Assembly: GCA_035536915.1 (NCBI GenBank)
Contig: DATLNE010000010.1
Location: forward strand, 62,001-126,000
Length of the DNA: 64,000 bases
Direction: 5' to 3'
Origin: Acidimicrobiales bacterium
GTDB taxonomy: Bacteria; Actinomycetota; Acidimicrobiia; Acidimicrobiales; JAHWLA01
Shown: positions 1,803 through 12,707 of the stretch, piece by piece
How positions within the stretch are numbered: the first letter of the stretch is position 1
Layout: every line of letters begins with the position of its first letter
Notes under the pieces: generated by a model
Told to the model about the DNA's origin: nothing
Database searches by the model: none
Seen by the model: only the letters and a program-made list of their open reading frames with translations
Position numbers and translations under genes: made by a program

Positions 1803-3428
1803 CTACGAGGGGGAGTGGCGCTCCACGATGCGGCGGGCATCGACGCCCGGCGGGAGGGTGCCGAAGGCGCGGCCGCCGTCGCCGTCGAGGCGCGAGGCGC
1901 AAAAGGCATCGGCTACGGCCGGGTCGCCCGAGCGCACCAGCAGCGAGCCCTGGAAGGCCAGCGCCATGGCCTCGACCACCCGGCGGGCGCGGCGTTCGAT
2001 GTCGTCGAGGTCGCCCAGCTCCTTGCGCAGGCGGGCCACGGCGTTGTCGAGGCGGGCGTCGGCCCCTGCCGCGCCGTCGAGCTCGGCCACGAAGGCCTCC
2101 ACCGACTCCGGGCTGCGGGCCATGGCCCGGAGCACGTCGAGGCAGATGACGTTGCCCGAGCCCTCCCACACGCCGTTGAGCGGGCTCTGGCGGAACAGCC
2201 GGGGCATGCCCGAGGCCTCGACGAAGCCGTTGCCGCCCAGGCATTCGAGCGACTCGGCCGCGTGCACCGGCGCCCGTTTGCAGACCCAGTACTTGCTGAC
2301 CGGGGTGGCCAACCGCTTGAGCAGGCGCTCGTGCTCGTCGTCGCCGCTGTCGTAGGCGCGGGCCAGCCGCAGGGCCGTGACGGTGGCCGCTTCCGACTCG
2401 ACGGCCAAGTCGGCCAGCACGGCCGACATGAGGGGCTGGTCGACCAGCGTCTTGCCGAAAGCAGCTCGGTGCGAAGCGTGGTGGATCGCCTGGGCGGTGC
2501 CGAGGCGCATGCCCGCAGCGGAGCCGAGCACGCAGTCGAGGCGCGTGTGGTTGACCATCTCGATGATGGTGCGGACACCGGCGCCCTCGTCGCCCACCCG
2601 TCGCGCCCAAGCAGCCGTCAGCTCGATCTCGCTGGAAGCGTTGGAGCGGTCGCCCAGCTTGTCCTTGAGCCGCTGGACGGCGACGGCGTTGCGGGTGCCG
2701 TCCGGGCGCCAGCGGGGGAGGAGGAAGCACGTCAAGCCGCCGGGTGCTTGGGCCAGCACCAGGAAGGCGTCCGACATCGGGGCCGAGCAGAACCACTTGT
2801 GGCCGGTGACGAGGTACTCGCCGTCGACCGCCCTGGGCTCGGCCCGGGTGGTGTTGGCCCGCACGTCGGAGCCGCCCTGCTTCTCGGTCATGGCCATGCC
2901 GAAGGTCACGCCCTGCTTCTGCGGGGCGGGGGCGAAGCGCCGGTCGTAGGTGCGCGACACCACCCGCGGTTCCCACTCGGCGGCCACGGCAGGCTCGTGG
3001 CGCAGCGCAGGCACCACCGAGTAGGTCATGGAGATGGGGCACGTGTGGCCCGCGTCGACCTGCGACCACACGATCATCTTGGCGGCCCGGGCCACGTGCG
3101 CCCCCGGCCGCTCGTCGGCCCACGGCGAGGCGTGCAGGCCGTGCGCCACCGACACGTCCATGAGCTGGTGGTAGGCGGGGTGGTAGCGCACCTCGTCGAG
3201 GCGGTGGCCGAAGCGGTCGTGGGTGTGCAGCACGGGCGGGTTCTCGTTGGCCAGGAAGCCCCACTCGATGGCCTCGGGCGTGCCCGCCTTGGCGCCAAGT
3301 TCGACGAGCTCGGCCTCGGCCCACTCGGCGCCCTCCCGACGCACCGCTTCTCCCAGCGCGGCGTCAGCGGTGAAGGCGTTGTGGTGCTCCAAGGGAGGTG
3401 CCTGGTTGAAGACCTCGTGGGTCGTCAT
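1803..3428 (-). CDS. aidB: AidB-type acyl-CoA dehydrogenase
   Basis: 541 residues, the same length as E. coli AidB, and collinear with it. Shared motifs include VFNQAPPL near the start, the NENPP..H.HD segment, CPISMTYSVVPAL, the FAD-site block GMAMTEKQGGSDVRANTT, RLKDKLGDRSNASSEIE, and LGGNGFVEASGMPRLFRQSPLNGVWEGSGNVICLDVLRA near residue 420. AidB is a flavoprotein of the acyl-CoA dehydrogenase family induced by alkylating agents in E. coli; its true substrate is debated. Start ATG 3428 overlaps the stop of the SRPBCC gene (ATGA, 3425-3428), so the two are translationally coupled. Confidence 0.93.
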   Translation of the reverse strand: MTTHEVFNQAPPLEHHNAFTADAALGEAVRREGAEWAEAELVELGAKAGTPEAIEWGFLANENPPVLHTHDRFGHRLDEVRYHPAYHQLMDVSVAHGLHASPWADERPGAHVARAAKMIVWSQVDAGHTCPISMTYSVVPALRHEPAVAAEWEPRVVSRTYDRRFAPAPQKQGVTFGMAMTEKQGGSDVRANTTRAEPRAVDGEYLVTGHKWFCSAPMSDAFLVLAQAPGGLTCFLLPRWRPDGTRNAVAVQRLKDKLGDRSNASSEIELTAAWARRVGDEGAGVRTIIEMVNHTRLDCVLGSAAGMRLGTAQAIHHASHRAAFGKTLVDQPLMSAVLADLAVESEAATVTALRLARAYDSGDDEHERLLKRLATPVSKYWVCKRAPVHAAESLECLGGNGFVEASGMPRLFRQSPLNGVWEGSGNVICLDVLRAMARSPESVEAFVAELDGAAGADARLDNAVARLRKELGDLDDIERRARRVVEAMALAFQGSLLVRSGDPAVADAFCASRLDGDGGRAFGTLPPGVDARRIVERHSPS

Positions 3429-3898
3429 GCCTCGGCCGTGGCCTTGATGCGGGCCAGGGTGGCCCGCATGCCCGCCATGTTGTGCTCCGTGCGTTCGCCC
3501 ACGCCGCTGGCCAGCAAGCCGAGGAACTTCAGGAGCCTGCCGCGCCGCTCCTCCCAGCGCTCCACCACTGTCGACCCGCCGTTGCCGTCGGCGCTGATGC
3601 GGTAGGTCCAGCGAGCCACGGGCAGCCCGAACACCGAGGTGACGTCGAAGGTCAGCTCCTCACCCGGGCTGGCCGTCACCACCGTGCCCGTCGTGCTCCA
3701 GCGGCGGAACCCGATGCGGTTGCGGCCTCTGAACTTGGCGCCCGGAGTGGCCGCGGTCGCGCCGCCCAGCCAGTCGCAGCGGACGCACTCGGGGCTCCAC
3801 TCGCCCATGCGGGGCAGGTCGGCCACCATGGCGTAGACGGCTTCGGGTGACGCCGCCACGTCGATGGATACTTCGTTCGATTCCCCCATGGCCGCCAT
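3425..3898 (-). CDS. SRPBCC (START-like) family protein
   Basis: 157 residues with the polyketide-cyclase/START-like pattern: VSIDVAASPEAVYAMVADLPRMGEWSPEC at the N-terminus, a FRGRNRIGFRRWSTT strand pair, and a C-terminal helix. This fold binds hydrophobic ligands in a deep pocket; ligand unknown. It ends in a 4-bp ATGA overlap with aidB, so it is the promoter-proximal gene of a two-gene operon. No good ribosome site precedes ATG 3898 or the internal ATG 3889, so the start is uncertain by three codons. The hairpin at 3903-3941 lies directly upstream. Confidence 0.8.
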   Translation of the reverse strand: MAAMGESNEVSIDVAASPEAVYAMVADLPRMGEWSPECVRCDWLGGATAATPGAKFRGRNRIGFRRWSTTGTVVTASPGEELTFDVTSVFGLPVARWTYRISADGNGGSTVVERWEERRGRLLKFLGLLASGVGERTEHNMAGMRATLARIKATAEA

Positions 3899-3946: not shown

Positions 3947-6900
3947 TCACCGCTTGAAGTGGAACAGGGCCGGGTGTGTCGAGCCGTCGTCGAGGGTGAT
4001 GACGAAGCGGCGGCACGTGTCGGCCCACGCCTTGGCCGTCTTCCAGGTGTAGACGAACTGCTGGTCCAACTCGCTGTAGCGCAGGCCCGACGGCGATGTG
4101 GTGTCGAGCAGGTCGGGCGCGATTGTGGAGCTCGCCCCCGCGGCGCAGGCGATTCGTTCCGACACGCTCGAGGTGACGACGCCCGTGCGGGTGACGACGG
4201 TGCCGTCGGGTTCTTCCACCCGGAACTTCATCGGCACCGACGAACCCGCCTGCACGACGTTCCACACGCCGGGGTTCTCGACCGGGGCGAAGTAGCCCTC
4301 GAAGTCGTAGCCGCCTGCGTATGTGACGGTCACCGTGGTCTCGTTGCCCACCCGGTCGACGGCCTTGACCCGGAAGTCGTGGTTGCCGGCCGTGGTGTTC
4401 AGTGTGACCGGGTCGAGCGCAGTGCACGACTCGATGCCCGAGCCGATGTCGGCGCAGGAGAAGGCGGCTTCGGTGTTGCCGCCCAGGACGTGCTGGCCCT
4501 GCACCGGGTTGGTGATGGCCACCGTCGGTGCCGCGTTGTCGACGGCGACGACCGTGCGCCCTGTGGAGCCGTCGGAGCCCCGGACGTCGACGGTGTGCAG
4601 CCCCGGCCCTGCCACGGTGAGGCCCGTGCCCAAGGGCCGGAAGGCGTCGCCGTCGATGCTGGCCTCGTACGCCACCTGCTGGCCGCCGGTGGCGGTGACC
4701 GTCGGGGGAGCGGTGAACCAGCCGTTGTCCTGCGTGCCGTTGACTGTGATCGTCAGGCCGCTGGAGGCCGGCGTTGTGGGCCGGAAGTCGAGGCCCTTGG
4801 CCCGGGTGGTGCCGACTTGGCCGTCGCGCACGCCTTGCACGAAGAAGTCGCCGACGCCCGTGGTGGGCACGACCCCTGTCCAGGTGCGGGCTGTGGCCCC
4901 CGCTGTGGCGGGCAGCGCTGTCAGGTCCAAGGACTGCCACGTGGCCGAGTCGGCCCGGTACAGCACCATCACGTGGTCGGCATCACGGGCTTCGATGCGG
5001 AAGGCCGTGGTCGACTCACCGATGGCGGCGGCCTCGACGGCAGCGAACGACGGCCGCGGCCCGTTCAACGTCGTCGGGTACAGCACCTTGCCTGTGATGC
5101 GGCTGAAGGTGTGGCGGGTGCCTTCGCCGTCGCTGCCTTCCGACCGGTACTGCGACGGGAACAGCTGCACGCCCCCGCCGGGCGCCGTCGAGGCCACCGG
5201 CACGGGGAACACCGCGTCGCGGGCTGTGACCGTCTCGTTGAAGGCGCTGCGGTCGGACGTCGGCATGGAGATGAGGGGGCTGACACTCTCGTCCATCGGC
5301 CCTGAGGTGAGGCCGGTGATGAGCACGTCGCCCTGCACCACGCCTGCCGGCGTCGGCGGCAGTGTGATGCCCACGCTGGGCTCGAGCGGCCGGTAGTGCA
5401 CCGCTGTCGGCGACTGCCCGTTGGCTGTGAGGTAGGTGCCCTGGGGCGTCGAGACCGGGGTCAGTGTGATGTCCTGGTCGAACGGCGCGGCCTGCACGGC
5501 CAGTGTCGGGTCGACCGGCAACGCTGTGCCCGCTGTGGCGCCGACTGTCGCGGGCAGCTCGCCACCGTTGGCGCCCACCTTGGCGAAGGGGAAGCCGTAG
5601 AACGTCGACTCGTTCACGACCTTCTGGTCGTACACGCCGAGCGCCGCTTCCCTTGTGAACGCCTCGCGGGCCTTCATCACCGCTTGCCCGACGGTCATTG
5701 TGCCGTCGAGGTTCTTGGTGAACAGCTTCAGGAACAGCTCGCCGTAGGCCAGCGCCGCGGTGTCGCCGTAACCGAAGCCGGTGTTGGCCAGGAAGCCCAA
5801 CGCCCGCTTGTCACGGGCGACCACTTGGGCGAAGTCGTCGAGCCGCGAGGCGTCGGCCGCTGTGGCCCCCGACACCCAGGCACGGCCCGGCACGTTCAGG
5901 CCTGCGTTGCAGCCGATGGTGAAGAGCAGCGCGCCCAGGTCGAGCCCGCTTGTGCCCAGGTCGGTGCTGGAGAACAGCGTCGGGTTGGTGGCCAGCGACG
6001 AGTTGCCCTGGGCGGGCAGCGCGTCGGCATGGTCGTAGTGGGCGTTGAGCGAGGCCACGGTGGCGCCGTCGCTCAACGCTGTCAGCAGCTCGTCGCGCGT
6101 CCACGTCTCGTTGTTGAGTGTCTTGGCTGTGGCGCCCAGTGCTGTGAGCTGGGCTGTGATGGCTGTCGCCAGGTCGCTCACGAAGTCGTAGCCGGTTGTG
6201 ACCGTCTTCGACAGGTCGATGTAAGGCTTGGTTGTGTACTGGTCGATGGCGCCCAGGATCTCGGCGGGCGTCTCCACCAGGCGGCCGCCTGCCAGGTCGG
6301 GCACGAGCAGTTGGCCGGTGAGGTAGTCGACCCGGTCACGCTCGGTGTAGGCGTTGTCGGTCAGCAGCATCCCGTAGGCCGAGGCCGCCGAGATGGGGTT
6401 GTCGCCGCCGGGGAAGCGGACCGAGTCGTAGTAGTCGCGCTGGTTCGACAGCGACACGTTGTCGAGCTCGCGGGCGAACGGGATCATGTCGTCGTCGCCC
6501 ACGACCACGACGTACTGCGCCTTCTTCAGCGCTGTGAGGTACTGGTCGAGCACGGCGGTGATCGGTCGGACCACGCCGTTGGCGGCCTCGGGCGCGCAGC
6601 GGTCGGCGTCCCATGCGGCGTAGGCGGCCGCCACTGTGGCGTCGCCGTCGACCGGCAGGATGAGGCCGTTGACCTCAGGCCGGTCGGCCAGGCCTTCCAG
6701 CGCTGTGGCGAGGGCTGTGGCCGCTGTGGCGCCGTAGGCGTCGCCCATGCGCTTCTGGTTGACGAGGAAGATCGTCTTCGTCTCGGGGTCGAGGGTGGCC
6801 TTGTTCGGCAGTGTGCCGGTGGTGCCGCCTGTGCCCATCGAGAAGGTCGCCGCGCAGGTCAGTTCCGGCGGCGGGTCGAGTGTGATCTGGAGCAGGTACG

Positions 6901-8884
6901 GCATGGCGCTGTTGCTGCCGAGGTGGTGGCCCACTGTGACTGTGAAGGGCTCCGAGGTCTGGCGCCGCACGATGGTGGAGACCACTTCGGTCTCGGTGGC
7001 CCGGTTGTCGGAGATGCTCAACGGGGTCGAGCGGATGGGCAGGTCCTGCAAGCCTTCCGGCGGGGCCACGTCGGTGGGGCCGAAGTCCTCGATGGGCAGT
7101 TGCCGCAGTGTCTTCTGCGGCGCGGAGGCCAGGAACGGCGTCGCCGTGGGGCCGTCGAGGAACAGGTCGAAGTCGGCGGGCAGGTGGCTGAGGGTGGCGA
7201 TGATGCGCGTGCCCTCGGGCAGGTTGGCCGGGAGTGTGTAGTAGTCGACGTCGTCGCCGTCACCGATGTGCGAGAGGTACATCGTGTTGGCTGTCACGGC
7301 CGTGGCGTTTGTGACGCTGTCGTTGGGCTCGAGGGCATCGGCGACGGTGAACGGCGCGTTGCTCAGTGCGGTGGCGCCCGACGTCGAGTTGGACCGGGCG
7401 TGGAACGACGCCGTCTTGATGCCCAGCTCCACGCCGGGACGGGCCAGGAACGAGAGCTTGACGCTCTCTGTGCGCGGCATCTCCTCGGAGCTGCAGTCGG
7501 CCTCCTCGCCCATGTACCAACGAAGGATGCTGGTGTCGATCATGGCCGCCTGGGTCACCATCACGGTGTCGGTGTTCGACGACTCGATAGAGCTACCGAA
7601 GGGCTCGCCTGCCGAGACCTCGTCGCCGTTGTCGATCTGCTTGGTGGCCGAATCGGGCACGTAGGTGAAGCCGTTGGCCAGGCGGACGGAAAAGACCATG
7701 CCCGCGCTGGCCCAGCAGTTGAAGTTGGCCTCGGCGGTGTAGCGGACGAGGCCGGGGTCGTTCAGTGTGGGCAGGGGAGCAGCGCCGGTGACGTTCCGAA
7801 GTGTGAGGTTCTCGTACGCCAGCTTTGTGGGGTCGATGACCGCTGTGGCGAGGTCGCCGAAGGTCAGGTACGGCAGCAGCGACCCGCCGTCGTCGCGCGC
7901 CAGCACGCGGCTGAGCGGCGCGGGGTCGACGATGGTGCGGCGGGTCGGCGTGAGCGCGGCGATGGCATCGGCCAAGGTCGTGCCTTCACCGCATGTCAGC
8001 ACTGTGCAGTCGACGACGTCGGGAAGCTCCAGCGCAGGGATGTTGGCCAGGTCGGTGCCTGTCACGTCCATGGCCCCGACGTCGAAGAAGCCCAGCGGGC
8101 TGGCTGTGAGGTCGGCCTGGTTCACCAGCAGTGTGGGGAGGAACCACAGTTGGTGGATGGGGGCACCCTTGAGGTCGAGGTCGAGCAGGGTGGAGGTGGC
8201 CTCGTTGATGCCGTTGGCCGCGCAGTCGAAGCCCGGCAGGTTGGCGCACCAGTCGTAGGTGGACGAGAGCTGGTCGAGGGTGGGGCCTGCGAAGAGGAAG
8301 CCCTGGAGCGTCGTGCTGCGGATGGGGGTCGACGCGATGTCGATGTCGTTCAGTGTGAGCGCTGTGATCTGGGGCGCGTCGAGGGCCAGGGCCTGCTGCA
8401 GGGTGACGGCGTTGAGGGCGGCACCGTCGTAGATCGTGCCTTCCAGCAGTGTCGCCCAGCCGCCTTCAACGAAGACGGGCACGGTCGACAGCGGCATGGG
8501 CGGCAGGGCCGCGGCCGCCAACGGCGTTGACCGGATGGGCATGGTCGCCAGCGGCGTGGAGCGGATGGGCGTCGAACGGATGGGCGTCGACCGGATGGGG
8601 GTCGACCGGATCGGCGTCGAGCGGATGGGCGTCGAACGGATCGGCGCCGCCTCGGGCCCGCTGGTGAACAGCGGGATGGTGCTGATGTCGAGCGTCGACT
8701 TGTCGAGCTTCGACAGGCCCGCAGGCCCCGCCGCTGTTGCGGCTGTGAACGACATGCTCTCGATCGAGCCGTCGTCGACCACGAGGGCAGAGGCAGGCGA
8801 TGGGACACCGCTCGCTACTGCCGCCACCAGTACTGCGAGTGAGATCGCGACGCGCCGTCGCGCCGCCGCCCAGCTTCGTGCCAT
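3947..8884 (-). CDS. Giant secreted protein with PIRST repeats and gingipain-like (C25) peptidase domain
   Basis: 1645 residues; ATG 8884 is preceded by GGAGG at good spacing. Seen in order: a Sec signal peptide (about 1-33); six tandem PIRST pentapeptides (81-110) with further isolated copies near 116, 195 and 620; a leucine-rich stretch of TLND/DLDLKGAPI type (about 140-290); a DUF11-like adhesin segment (about 390-510); a PPC-type domain starting EPNDSVTNATAV (about 514-585); a C25/caspase-like domain with the usual VVVVGDDDMIPFAREL strand (about 785), candidate catalytic His949/His952 (NAHYDHAD) and Cys992 (FTIGCNAG); and a C-terminal PxKF-like domain (about 1526-1645) with VPMKFRV. No LPXTG or TM anchor is seen, so it is probably released or wall-associated. 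Thr codons are strikingly often ACA. The peptidase call rests on motifs; the target is unknown. Confidence 0.75.
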   Translation of the reverse strand: MARSWAAARRRVAISLAVLVAAVASGVPSPASALVVDDGSIESMSFTAATAAGPAGLSKLDKSTLDISTIPLFTSGPEAAPIRSTPIRSTPIRSTPIRSTPIRSTPIRSTPLATMPIRSTPLAAAALPPMPLSTVPVFVEGGWATLLEGTIYDGAALNAVTLQQALALDAPQITALTLNDIDIASTPIRSTTLQGFLFAGPTLDQLSSTYDWCANLPGFDCAANGINEATSTLLDLDLKGAPIHQLWFLPTLLVNQADLTASPLGFFDVGAMDVTGTDLANIPALELPDVVDCTVLTCGEGTTLADAIAALTPTRRTIVDPAPLSRVLARDDGGSLLPYLTFGDLATAVIDPTKLAYENLTLRNVTGAAPLPTLNDPGLVRYTAEANFNCWASAGMVFSVRLANGFTYVPDSATKQIDNGDEVSAGEPFGSSIESSNTDTVMVTQAAMIDTSILRWYMGEEADCSSEEMPRTESVKLSFLARPGVELGIKTASFHARSNSTSGATALSNAPFTVADALEPNDSVTNATAVTANTMYLSHIGDGDDVDYYTLPANLPEGTRIIATLSHLPADFDLFLDGPTATPFLASAPQKTLRQLPIEDFGPTDVAPPEGLQDLPIRSTPLSISDNRATETEVVSTIVRRQTSEPFTVTVGHHLGSNSAMPYLLQITLDPPPELTCAATFSMGTGGTTGTLPNKATLDPETKTIFLVNQKRMGDAYGATAATALATALEGLADRPEVNGLILPVDGDATVAAAYAAWDADRCAPEAANGVVRPITAVLDQYLTALKKAQYVVVVGDDDMIPFARELDNVSLSNQRDYYDSVRFPGGDNPISAASAYGMLLTDNAYTERDRVDYLTGQLLVPDLAGGRLVETPAEILGAIDQYTTKPYIDLSKTVTTGYDFVSDLATAITAQLTALGATAKTLNNETWTRDELLTALSDGATVASLNAHYDHADALPAQGNSSLATNPTLFSSTDLGTSGLDLGALLFTIGCNAGLNVPGRAWVSGATAADASRLDDFAQVVARDKRALGFLANTGFGYGDTAALAYGELFLKLFTKNLDGTMTVGQAVMKAREAFTREAALGVYDQKVVNESTFYGFPFAKVGANGGELPATVGATAGTALPVDPTLAVQAAPFDQDITLTPVSTPQGTYLTANGQSPTAVHYRPLEPSVGITLPPTPAGVVQGDVLITGLTSGPMDESVSPLISMPTSDRSAFNETVTARDAVFPVPVASTAPGGGVQLFPSQYRSEGSDGEGTRHTFSRITGKVLYPTTLNGPRPSFAAVEAAAIGESTTAFRIEARDADHVMVLYRADSATWQSLDLTALPATAGATARTWTGVVPTTGVGDFFVQGVRDGQVGTTRAKGLDFRPTTPASSGLTITVNGTQDNGWFTAPPTVTATGGQQVAYEASIDGDAFRPLGTGLTVAGPGLHTVDVRGSDGSTGRTVVAVDNAAPTVAITNPVQGQHVLGGNTEAAFSCADIGSGIESCTALDPVTLNTTAGNHDFRVKAVDRVGNETTVTVTYAGGYDFEGYFAPVENPGVWNVVQAGSSVPMKFRVEEPDGTVVTRTGVVTSSVSERIACAAGASSTIAPDLLDTTSPSGLRYSELDQQFVYTWKTAKAWADTCRRFVITLDDGSTHPALFHFKR
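8555..8644 (-). repeat. Tandem 15-bp coding repeat (six PIRST units)
   Basis: Six near-identical 15-bp units (plus-strand unit of the form CGGATGGGCGTCGAC) encode six PIRST pentapeptides in a row. A seventh unit lies at about 8525-8539 after a short spacer. The units differ mostly at third codon positions, so they have been kept at the protein level. Confidence 0.85.
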
Positions 8885-9011: not shown

Positions 9012-12000
9012 ATGGCAGAACGTCCGTTCGGGGCCTATCTGGCCCGCTGCCACGCGGAGTGGTTGGAGGTCGACGTCGGCGGCCCCGCCTGCCGCTCGCT
9101 CGACGCCACCTTGGTCTTCGCCGACGTCTCCGGCTTCACCCCGTTGACCGAGCGGCTGGCCCGCCTCGGACGGGTGGGAGCCGAGCGTTTGACCGACATC
9201 CTCAACGAGGTCATGGCGGGCTTGCTCGACGTGGCCGTCGAGCGCGGCGGCGACCTGTTGAAGTACGGCGGCGACGCGTTGCTGCTGCTGTTCTCGGGCG
9301 AGGGCCATGCGGAGCGGGCCGTCGAGGCCGCCCATGCCATGCAGAAGGCACTGCGGCCCTACCGCCGGCTGCGCACCGAGGCCGGGCCCGTGTCGTTGCG
9401 CATGTCGGTCGGCGTCGCATCGGGGCCGGTGCACCTGTTCCTGGTGGGCGACCGCCATCGCGAGCTGGTGGTGGGCGGGCCGACTGTCGACGAGGTGGTG
9501 GCCCAGGAGTCCGCCGCCGAGGCCGACCAGGTGTTGGTGGCTTCGGTGGCTGCGGGCGACGTTGCTCCCGTTGCGGTGGCACCCGGCGCGGGGTCGGCGT
9601 TCGAGGCGGGCGTGCCGGCGTCGCTGCGCGAGTGCCTGGCCGGCGAAGCGGGTGACGGCGAGCACCGCGTGGCTGTGCTCACGTTTGTCGAGGCACGGGG
9701 AACCTCCGACCTCTTGGCCACGTCGGGTCCGGCTGCGGTGGCCGCCGCGCTGCACGACGTGGTGTGCGCGGCCCAGGCGGCGTCGGAGAAGCACGGGGTC
9801 ACGTTCCTCGCCACCGACCTGTCGTCGAACGGCACCAAGGTGCTGCTCTCGGCGGGGGCGCCCGTGGCTTCCACCGAAGACGAAGACCGCATGCTGCACA
9901 CGTTGCTCGACGTGCTCGACGAGGTGGCCGACGGGCCGTTGGTCGTGCGGGCGGGCGTGAACCGAGGGCGGGCCTTCGCCGTCGACGTCGGGTCGCGCAC
10001 TCGCCGCACCTACGCGGTGATGGGCGACGCCACCAACCTGGCGGCTCGGGTGATGGGCAAGTCCGCCCCCGGCACAGTGCTGGCCACCCGCAGCGTGCTC
10101 GACCGGGTGCGAGGCGCCTACGAGACGGAGTGGTTGGCGCCCTTCCCGGTGAAGGGCAAGTCGCAACTGGTCGACGCCGCCGTGGTGGGTCGAGCGGTGG
10201 CCGCTGCGGCCGCGCCCGCCGCCGACGCGCCGTTGGTCGGCCGCGAGGGGGAGGTGGCCCTGCTGCGCGAGGCCGTGGCCTCGGGCGGGCGGGTGGTCGA
10301 GCTGGTGGGCGAGCCGGGCATCGGCAAGTCGCGATTGCTGACAGCGTTCTGCGGCTTGGTCGGCGGCGCGGCGATGCTGCAGGTCGAGGGCATGCCCTAT
10401 GCCACCAGCAGCCCGTACCTTGCATTGCGGGCGCCCTTGCGGCGACTGCTCGGCGTGGCCCCCGACTCGCCCGACGAGGCCGTGGTGCGCGCCCTCGTCG
10501 CACAGGCGCCCGACTTGGAGGACGAGCTGCCGTTGCTGGCGGTGCCCTTCGGCGTCGAGTTGGCCGACACGGCGACGACCGCCGCCGTCGACCCCGCCTT
10601 TCGCGCCGCCCGCATCCATTCGCTGGTGGTCGACGTGGTGGAGCGGGTGCTGCCCGAGCGAACCGCGTTGGCGGTGGAGGATGCCCACTGGCTCGATGCG
10701 GCATCGAGCGGACTGCTCGGCCACCTCCTCGACCTCGTCCCCGAGCGGCCGTGGGTGGCGTGCGTGACGCGGCGAGACGTCGAGGGCGGCTTGCGGCCCG
10801 CGGGCGAGCACGTGACGTCGGTGGCGGTGGAACCGCTGGGGCCGGAGGCGGCCAAGTCGCTCGTGCGCTCACTGGGCGGGCCGGGCGGCTTGGTGGCGGG
10901 CTCGTTGGTGGAGCGCAGCGGCGGCAACCCGTTGTTCCTGCAGGAGTTGCTGGCCATGGGCGATGACATCGCCGAGGTTCCCGACAGCGTGGAGGCGGTG
11001 GTGGCGGCCCGCATCGACACCCTGCCGCGCGACGGGCGCGCCGTGTTGCGGGGGGCGGCCGTGCTGGGTGGCCGGTTCGACGCCGGGATGCTGGCGTCGT
11101 TGTTGGGGCGCGACGTGGCGGGCGCCCTCGGCGCCATCGGCGGGTTCCTGGTGCAGGACGAGTCGGGCCGGTACCGCTTCCGCCATGCCCTGCTGCGCGA
11201 GGTGGCCTACGGGGGGCTGCCGTTCCGCCGACGCCGGGAGTTGCACGGCCGGGCGGGCGAGTTGGTCGAGGCCTCGGCGGGCGAGGCGGTGGAGGAGTGG
11301 TCCGACCTGTTGTCGCTGCACTTCAGCGCCGCGGGCCGTGACGCCGAGGCGTGGCGGTACTCGCGTCTCGCGGGCGAACGGGCGCGGCGTACGAGCGCGT
11401 TGGTGGAGGCCGAGACGTTCTACCGCCGCGCCGTCGACGCCGCCGCCGGGCTCGACGGCGTGGCACGCGACGAGGTGGCCGCCGTGTGGGAGGCGCTGGG
11501 CGACGTGGCCGAGTTGGGCGGTCGCTTCGCCGTCGCCCAGGAGGCGTACCGGCAGAGCCGCCGCCTGCGTGCCGCCGACGCCGCCGGGCTGGTACGCCTC
11601 TATCGCAAGGAAGGCCGGCTGCGCGAGCGGTGGGGCCGCTACGCCGACGGGCTGCGCTGGTACACCCGAGGCGAGCAGTTGCTGGCGTCGCTGCCTGCGG
11701 GCGCCGATGCCACCCGGGCGGCGGGGCGCATGGCGCTGGGCCGGGCCGCTTGCCGCTACCGACAAGGCCGCTACCGCGACTGCCTGGCTCCGTTGGAAGC
11801 GGCGGTGGCTGCGGCGTCGGCCGTCGACGACCTGCGCACGCTCGGCAACGCCTATTACATGCTCGACAACGTGCACACCGACCTTGGCACCGGCGAGGGG
11901 GCTCGGTTCCGCGAGCGGGCGTTGGAGATCTTCGAGGAACTGGGCGACGTGTGGCGCCAGGCCAACGTCTTCAACAACCTCGGCGTTGACGCCTACTACG

Positions 12001-12707
12001 AAGGCCGGTGGGACGACGCGCTGGCCCACTACCGCCGCTGCCGCGACCTGTTCGCCCGCTCCGGCGACACCGTGCAGGTGGGCTCGGCCGACAACAACAT
12101 CGGCGAGGTGCTGTCCGACCAAGGACGGCTGGTCGAAGCCGAGCCGCTGTTCGCCGAGGCGCTGGCCGTGTTCCGCGCCACCCGGTCGCCCGACTGGGTG
12201 GCGGTGGTGACGGCCAACCTCGGGCGGTTGGCCGTGCGGGCCGGCCGTTTCGCCGAGGGCGAGGCGTTGTTGGTCGAGGCGCGTGAAGAGTTCCGGCGTT
12301 TGCGGGCCGACGCCTTCTTGTTGGAGGCCGAGGCCCGGCTGGCCGAACGCGCCGTGCTCGCAGGCGTGGCTGCGCCGGGCTGCGTCGACGACGTGCGCCG
12401 CGCCGCCGTGCGGGCCGGGGGTATGCCGGTGCTGCTGGCCATGCTCGACCGGCTCGACGGCTGGGCGCTCGCCCAGGCCGGGCGAGTGCTGGAGGCGATT
12501 GACCGGTTGGAAGCCTCGCTGGCCCGTGCCGAGGCCGCGGGGGCCGACTACGAAGCGGCGTTGGCCTACGAGGGCCTTGCCCGGGTGGGCCGGTTGGCCG
12601 ACGACGAACGGGTAGATCGTTGGGCCAAGGAAGCGGCGGCCGCCTTCGACCGCCTCGGCGTCACCGCCACCCCGACCGTCCCCCTCCCCACCCCCGAAGT
12701 TGCGTAG
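9012..12707 (+). CDS. Tandem class III adenylate cyclase / ATPase / TPR protein (soluble-AC architecture)
   Basis: 1231 residues. Cyclase domain C1 (about 30-190) has VFADVSGFT with metal-binding Asp38, and LLKYGGDALLLLF with Asp88. Cyclase domain C2 (about 215-400) lacks both Asp positions but keeps the transition-state pair Asn342 and Arg346 (DATNLAAR). The two halves are thus complementary, as in animal soluble adenylyl cyclase. An STAND-like ATPase follows: Walker A GEPGIGKS at 433-440 and Walker B LAVEDAHWLD near 553-562. TPR-like helices fill about 780-1210. No membrane segment is seen. Likely a cytosolic signal-regulated cyclase; the activating signal is unknown. ATG 9012 has only a weak ribosome site. 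The stop codon is the last base triplet of an inverted-repeat arm. Confidence 0.85.
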   Translation: MAERPFGAYLARCHAEWLEVDVGGPACRSLDATLVFADVSGFTPLTERLARLGRVGAERLTDILNEVMAGLLDVAVERGGDLLKYGGDALLLLFSGEGHAERAVEAAHAMQKALRPYRRLRTEAGPVSLRMSVGVASGPVHLFLVGDRHRELVVGGPTVDEVVAQESAAEADQVLVASVAAGDVAPVAVAPGAGSAFEAGVPASLRECLAGEAGDGEHRVAVLTFVEARGTSDLLATSGPAAVAAALHDVVCAAQAASEKHGVTFLATDLSSNGTKVLLSAGAPVASTEDEDRMLHTLLDVLDEVADGPLVVRAGVNRGRAFAVDVGSRTRRTYAVMGDATNLAARVMGKSAPGTVLATRSVLDRVRGAYETEWLAPFPVKGKSQLVDAAVVGRAVAAAAAPAADAPLVGREGEVALLREAVASGGRVVELVGEPGIGKSRLLTAFCGLVGGAAMLQVEGMPYATSSPYLALRAPLRRLLGVAPDSPDEAVVRALVAQAPDLEDELPLLAVPFGVELADTATTAAVDPAFRAARIHSLVVDVVERVLPERTALAVEDAHWLDAASSGLLGHLLDLVPERPWVACVTRRDVEGGLRPAGEHVTSVAVEPLGPEAAKSLVRSLGGPGGLVAGSLVERSGGNPLFLQELLAMGDDIAEVPDSVEAVVAARIDTLPRDGRAVLRGAAVLGGRFDAGMLASLLGRDVAGALGAIGGFLVQDESGRYRFRHALLREVAYGGLPFRRRRELHGRAGELVEASAGEAVEEWSDLLSLHFSAAGRDAEAWRYSRLAGERARRTSALVEAETFYRRAVDAAAGLDGVARDEVAAVWEALGDVAELGGRFAVAQEAYRQSRRLRAADAAGLVRLYRKEGRLRERWGRYADGLRWYTRGEQLLASLPAGADATRAAGRMALGRAACRYRQGRYRDCLAPLEAAVAAASAVDDLRTLGNAYYMLDNVHTDLGTGEGARFRERALEIFEELGDVWRQANVFNNLGVDAYYEGRWDDALAHYRRCRDLFARSGDTVQVGSADNNIGEVLSDQGRLVEAEPLFAEALAVFRATRSPDWVAVVTANLGRLAVRAGRFAEGEALLVEAREEFRRLRADAFLLEAEARLAERAVLAGVAAPGCVDDVRRAAVRAGGMPVLLAMLDRLDGWALAQAGRVLEAIDRLEASLARAEAAGADYEAALAYEGLARVGRLADDERVDRWAKEAAAAFDRLGVTATPTVPLPTPEVA

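Follow-up and report, generated by a model that had tools for sequence, protein, structure and literature searches.

A predicted secreted C25-like peptidase with a protein-private, concertedly switching pentapeptide word is encoded beside a cyclase/AAA/TPR gene in Acidimicrobiales

Pentapeptide repeat proteins follow the consensus [STAV][DN][LF][STR][G] (PMC8145042). Among C25 cysteine peptidases, the gingipain RgpB has its S1 residue, Asp163, in the first helix of the subdomain with the caspase-like fold, and an arginine of the prodomain sits in S1 and is later cut (PMC4357240). Repeated peptides are also known from precursors of peptide signals: the yeast alpha-factor is a single peptide encoded by 16 synonymous repeats (PMC5850478), and in Bacillota, genes of pheromone propeptides in tandem are linked to that of a TPR receptor (PMC11343458). 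In a search of the openly accessible literature, we found no description for PIRST, for C25 with pentapeptide repeats or for PxKF. Here we analysed a stretch of 64,000 nucleotides of Acidimicrobiales DNA, which we call the window, and compared one of its genes with relatives. The gene and the parts that concern the repeat are as follows.

3947..8884, minus strand: coding sequence of the C25-like peptidase, predicted to be secreted, 1645 amino acids, stop codon included; ATG start, open throughout, with a 62% identical ortholog
8786..8884, minus strand: putative Sec-type signal peptide at the N-terminus (residues ~1-33), recognised in the sequence MARSWAAARRRVAISLAVLVAAVASGVPSPASA by RRR, a hydrophobic core and PSPASA
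8525..8644, minus strand: PIRST array, made of six tandem units (residues 81-110), PLATM and the PIRST at 116
8312..8326, minus strand: isolated PIRST at residue 187, with the Ser codon AGC, against TCN in all array copies
7025..7039, minus strand: isolated PIRST at residue 616, within the PPC-like region

Despite a 1044-codon antisense ORF that overlies the coding sequence, we take the sense frame to be real because it is uninterrupted and because the sister genome (G001) has an ortholog that is 62% identical across residues 4-1644. The protein contains PIRST nine times, in tandem at residues 81, 86, 91, 96, 101 and 106 and in isolation at 116, 187 and 616. Tandem Repeats Finder assigned the array DNA a period of 15 with 6.3 copies and a score of 132, and six units in tandem far exceed chance expectation. 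A first-pass annotation of this DNA had reported six consecutive units plus isolated copies in the same chain, which is confirmed and understated the case.

About 27 relatives were found across the order and the phylum, at loci drawn from draft genomes in which contig ends cut several. A profile of the C25 core matched 16 genomes out of the 148 covered in the order and 5 out of 297 in the phylum, and a wider search over a sample of 59 genomes gave matches in 20, some through tail domains or short repeats alone; no relatives appeared in the viral collection and plasmids searched. When 84,980 genomes were scanned for a DNA pattern of three PI[RS]xT units, 11 loci were returned, and the eight with at least three in-frame copies proved to be short simple-repeat frames and not relatives. 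Weak matches at L024-L030, L038 and L039 were likewise unrelated to the peptidase. The reverse strand of L024 encodes a protein of 195 residues that bears a signal peptide and an array of PVRDV/PERDV pentapeptides but lacks a C25 domain; it possibly shares a repeat style with the peptidase. The loci L071 and L093, in two different families, hold almost the same PISSL protein (73% in the peptidase), and this likeness across families suggests horizontal transfer.

Nearly every complete relative has a repeat word of its own. The words include PMRST, PLRSV, PLAAV (36 copies), PISSL (50 and 53), PLGAI (30), PIRFS and GLRTF, and further PLGAV/PLSAV, ALRSI, AFLHS, PTSRV, SPSAF, SPSVF and SNSAF; some members have repeat units of 6, 10, 11 or 12 residues (L046, L044, L043, L087). 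The own word was found outside the longest block in 14 of the 18 proteins with 5-residue words, foreign words turned up in 2 of 234 protein-word pairs, and in most N-terminal arrays the copies off the main block bear the word of the array. At one homologous isolated site, 52 of 60 residues agree with the protein's own array, compared with 23.7 in permutations (p=5e-6, with phylogeny not corrected). Since genome G186 holds two paralogs with different words, GLRTF and PTSRV, the word belongs to the protein and not to the genome.

The words change in concert. Between the window protein and its sister, the Ile of PIRST is replaced by Met at 9 of 9 copies, as against none of 51 other isoleucines, while the P, R, S and T of the copies are unchanged at all 36 residues with identical codons at 19 of the 36. 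Likewise, L045 and L071, which share 71% peptidase identity, differ by PLAAV to PISSL at 33 of 34 aligned units, and the interrupting units between them are still homologous; in the SPSAF group, one member with 69% peptidase identity reads SNSAF in 11 of 11 copies. Homogeneous repeats are usually credited to DNA recombination, and unequal crossing-over with gene conversion could in principle homogenise both the array and the scattered copies without selection, a view to which the tandem DNA repeats and the recent multi-unit duplications of some genes lend support. Conversion, however, should homogenise codons too, whereas in most genes codon identity from copy to copy resembles random draws from the gene itself: it is 0.58 for PIRST against 0.50 expected (95% range 0.43-0.59) and 0.41 against 0.41 for PLAAV, and an excess, marking recent duplication, was found for six arrays (L046, L047, L094, L096, L086 and L087). 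Moreover, the isolated copy at residue 187 has kept AGC as its serine codon in each of the two sisters, yet its Ile/Met state tracks the array, so that conversion from the array fails to explain that state, and the interruptions survive between the switched PLAAV/PISSL copies. Taken together, we regard neutral homogenisation as very unlikely. The near-random codons and the retained AGC indicate that selection on the protein, and not simple DNA copying, keeps the copies uniform: the codons are scrambled and the amino acids identical. Because whole copy sets have switched between close relatives, this is a natural case of selection for uniformity in which the state itself is free to change. In the L048 array (residues 553-612), the codons have a period of four pentapeptides, that is, 20 residues or one putative coil; among the arrays this DNA periodicity was seen in L048 only, the others showing periods of three or five.

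The array lies within an N-terminal domain that has a five-residue phase of its own.

7880..8713, minus strand: putative divergent pentapeptide-repeat-like domain, residues 58-335, with a lag-5 hydrophobic period and, in relatives, canonical in-phase interruptions

With PIRST masked, hydrophobic residues of this domain recur at lag 5 with 1.55-fold enrichment (p=0.001) and also at lag 10, lags 4 and 6 are depleted, and several relatives agree in the lag-5 period. Short gaps between copies in the relatives are multiples of five in 75 of 79 cases, and the units that fill them follow [D/E]-[L/V/I]-x-[G/A]-[T/S], in other words T-D-L-A-G in phase, with a hydrophobic second position in 77 of 78. 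Measured against the consensus of pentapeptide repeat proteins, the array units keep positions i-2 and i and have P, A or G at i-1; if P is accepted there, the window protein has nine in-phase units with a hydrophobic centre from residue 80. These in-phase gaps and their consensus-like filling suggest that the domain is most likely a divergent pentapeptide-repeat beta-helix. Pfam pentapeptide families gave no match in the window protein, and Pentapeptide_4 reached sub-threshold values in relatives (best 8e-6; 15-26 bits against a cut-off of 38). In the 148 genomes of the order, the domain occurs only where the peptidase is also present. Alternatively, the array could be a disordered linker rich in Pro, Ser and Thr, as a weak Extensin_1 match in the window protein might indicate, and AlphaFold2, run on residues 58-335 as a single sequence without relatives, showed no order (pLDDT 35). 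Yet the five-residue hydrophobic phase of the flanks, the hydrophobic in-phase interruptions and the exact conservation of the word are unlike linkers, and we hold this explanation to be highly improbable. The earlier suggestion that PIRST seeds a beta-solenoid finds support in the sequence as far as the solenoid is concerned, with PIRST more likely a part of it than its seed.

Downstream of the repeat domain, the protein shows further regions.

6860..7387, minus strand: PPC-like region, residues ~500-675; Pfam PPC (PF04151) E=1.4, below threshold
5555..6817, minus strand: putative C25 peptidase domain, residues 690-1110; PF01364 in 7 of 10 members, best 8e-11
6185..6187, minus strand: Asp900 of a GYDF motif, candidate S1 aspartate, in 22 of 23; role proposed from RgpB Asp163
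6038..6040, minus strand: candidate catalytic His949, invariant in 23 of 23 by sequence comparison of relatives
5909..5911, minus strand: candidate catalytic Cys992, invariant in 23 of 23 by the same comparison
3950..4297, minus strand: PxKF C-terminal domain, residues 1530-1645; NF038114 E=5e-33, 113.8 bits against a cut-off of 35

The window protein is probably an active C25 (gingipain-like) cysteine peptidase, judging from its motifs and profile matches. In addition to the Pfam C25 matches of the core family members, PF01364 was detected at residues 778-1077 in the scan of the whole window protein (E=0.0019), and when the domain was scanned alone it scored E=7.5e-5 with 22.6 bits, the gathering cut-off being 23. 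Profile searches of the PDB gave no match to any solved structure, and AlphaFold2 on residues 685-1110, again as a single sequence without relatives, returned a pLDDT of about 35-36. The first-pass annotation had proposed a gingipain-like His/Cys domain and had placed His949, His952 and Cys992 correctly; the conservation of His949 and Cys992 and the C25 matches agree with such a domain, but His952 is not conserved. Its proposal of a PxKF-like C-terminus is upheld by the strong NF038114 match. As for the PPC-like region, four relatives checked gave no PF04151 match; it hosts SPSAF-type arrays in L042, L047, L048, L073, L084, L085 and L159.

The RgpB precedent raised the possibility that the C25 peptidase cuts its own protein at the copies or is inhibited by them, in which case words and peptidase would change together. 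PIRST, PMRST, PLRSV, ALRSI, GLRTF and PIRFS all contain Arg, the word follows the protein and not the genome, and the repeat domain is found only with the peptidase, all of which would suit such a role. On the other hand, about half of the words lack Arg (PLAAV, PISSL and SPSAF, for example), and the idea is weakened by Asp900, the candidate equivalent of RgpB Asp163, being kept in 22 of 23 members whether the word has Arg or not. No peptidase column, those of the S1 pocket included, split Arg from non-Arg words beyond permutation, with phylogeny again not corrected, and we consider self-processing or self-inhibition distinctly unlikely.

The peptidase gene is flanked by a divergent gene.

9012..12707, plus strand: partner gene, 1231 amino acids, with tandem nucleotide cyclase domains, AAA_16 and TPR (PF00211, PF13191, PF13424), divergent from the peptidase gene

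A homolog of this partner adjoins the peptidase gene in 20 loci, with the two genes divergent in 5, convergent in 8, in the order peptidase to cyclase in 3 and cyclase to peptidase in 4. Chance adjacency is negligible because genomes contain only 1 to 9 such cyclases each, and adjacency through four orientations argues for a functional pair. L096 is without a partner despite long flanks, and the other partner-less loci have contig ends nearby. In the 12 genomes with about 15 kb of flanks, no family recurred in more than about five as a third conserved neighbour, and no permease gene is linked to the peptidase loci. In 15-16 partners, nearly all of them, the C1 domain has both metal-binding Asp motifs and C2 has the transition-state motif N..AAR; these motifs would together form one composite class III cyclase site. 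The private, concertedly changing word and the nearly constant neighbour gene point to an undescribed two-gene system of peptidase and cyclase/AAA/TPR protein, in which the linked gene offers a concrete partner candidate. Two further observations concern the neighbourhood. At L144 (6244-9981, G106:C16), a cyclase closely homologous to the partner is encoded with no C25 gene near, an orphan partner; and downstream of the peptidase gene the window encodes an AidB-like acyl-CoA dehydrogenase and a polyketide-cyclase-type (SRPBCC) protein (1803-3428 and 3425-3898, minus strand), which are not conserved beside the relatives.

We favour, with a confidence that stops somewhat short of an even chance, the reading that the protein is a self-matching pentapeptide-repeat stalk that presents a C25 peptidase, and that it forms the secreted component in a conserved module of two genes. 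In this proposal, some rungs of the helix and a loop of the PPC-like domain would carry one protein-private word, PIRST here, which protein-level selection keeps identical across copies and for which relatives have substituted another word in every copy at once. We infer as the likeliest cause that copies must match each other or one common binding surface: each rung would stack on the next, and the loop of the PPC-like domain would dock on this stack, be it of its own molecule or of another. The solenoid may then serve as a stiff stalk with the peptidase presented at the cell surface, a location suggested by the sequence together with knowledge of the family, and with PxKF at the far end, while the cyclase/AAA/TPR neighbour probably controls, or responds to, production of the peptidase. 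Stacking alone leaves the uniformity at all five positions unexplained, since outward-facing rungs need not be identical, and repeats of 6, 10, 11 or 12 residues are hard to place in a helix with a strict period of five. The excess codon identity of six arrays, the restriction of the four-unit DNA period to L048, and the lack of a PDB profile match and of above-threshold Pfam pentapeptide matches also count against this reading.

The uniform positions and the varied repeat lengths are better accommodated if many copies of a short signal peptide are contained in the protein as a precursor, whose word would be freed by the C25 or another peptidase and sensed by the neighbouring TPR protein, as Rap-type receptors sense Phr pentapeptides. 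Such a precursor would account better than the stalk for the uniformity of the outward residues, for repeats of varied length and for a partner with TPR: identical words with varied codons are typical of peptide precursors, the identity of the word appears to count above its length (5, 6, 10, 11 or 12), and in 20 loci the gene beside that of the peptidase encodes a protein with TPR. The copies, however, have neither a spacer nor a common cut site, the flanks of isolated copies vary, the in-phase pentapeptide interruptions indicate a folded repeat, and a linked permease gene is missing. Yeast alpha-factor precursors contain spacers and processing sites. Weighing both sides, we think a signal precursor unlikely, though by no means negligible. 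Two candidate signatures in the TPR region were also tried and rejected: an acidic column that split Arg from non-Arg words perfectly failed in the added partners L153 and L154 and the presumed partner L143, and extra TPR divergence between partner pairs with different words was not specific to TPR.

A broader possibility, speculative and improbable in our estimate but of real weight, is that the locus represents a new cell-to-cell or self-recognition system, in which a species-private word would be read by a cognate partner, either the TPR-cyclase or the word on another cell, and all copies would be rewritten when specificity changes. If the word is indeed a ligand, a specificity code could be read straight from genome sequence.

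Setting the favoured self-matching stalk and its partner beside described systems, the locus shares with Rap-Phr and other RRNPPA systems (PMC11343458) a repeated short secreted peptide sequence and an adjacent TPR protein, but the would-be precursor is a large peptidase, apparently folded, the TPR belongs to a cyclase, and the free peptide is a hypothetical one. With yeast alpha-factor precursors (PMC5850478) it has in common identical peptides from many synonymous repeats, and it differs in that the copies of the window protein stand without spacers or processing sites. The five-residue phase, the hydrophobic centre and the T-D-L-A-G interruptions are those of pentapeptide repeat proteins (Rfr fold; PF00805, PF13599); in contrast to these, the arrays have P, A or G instead of D/N at i-1, repeat one word exactly, stay below Pfam thresholds, and belong to a predicted secreted protein fused to C25. 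C25 peptidases such as gingipain RgpB and PorU resemble it in the PF01364 match of 7 of 10 members, in the conserved His followed by Cys in the same order and in the candidate S1 Asp, whereas here no gingipain-type prodomain was detected, the PorU_rel match is weak and a PxKF C-terminus is fused. The partner, finally, presumably resembles soluble adenylyl cyclase-like proteins (cyclase-cyclase-AAA-TPR), from which it is set apart by its linkage, in 20 loci, to the gene of a putatively secreted peptidase.
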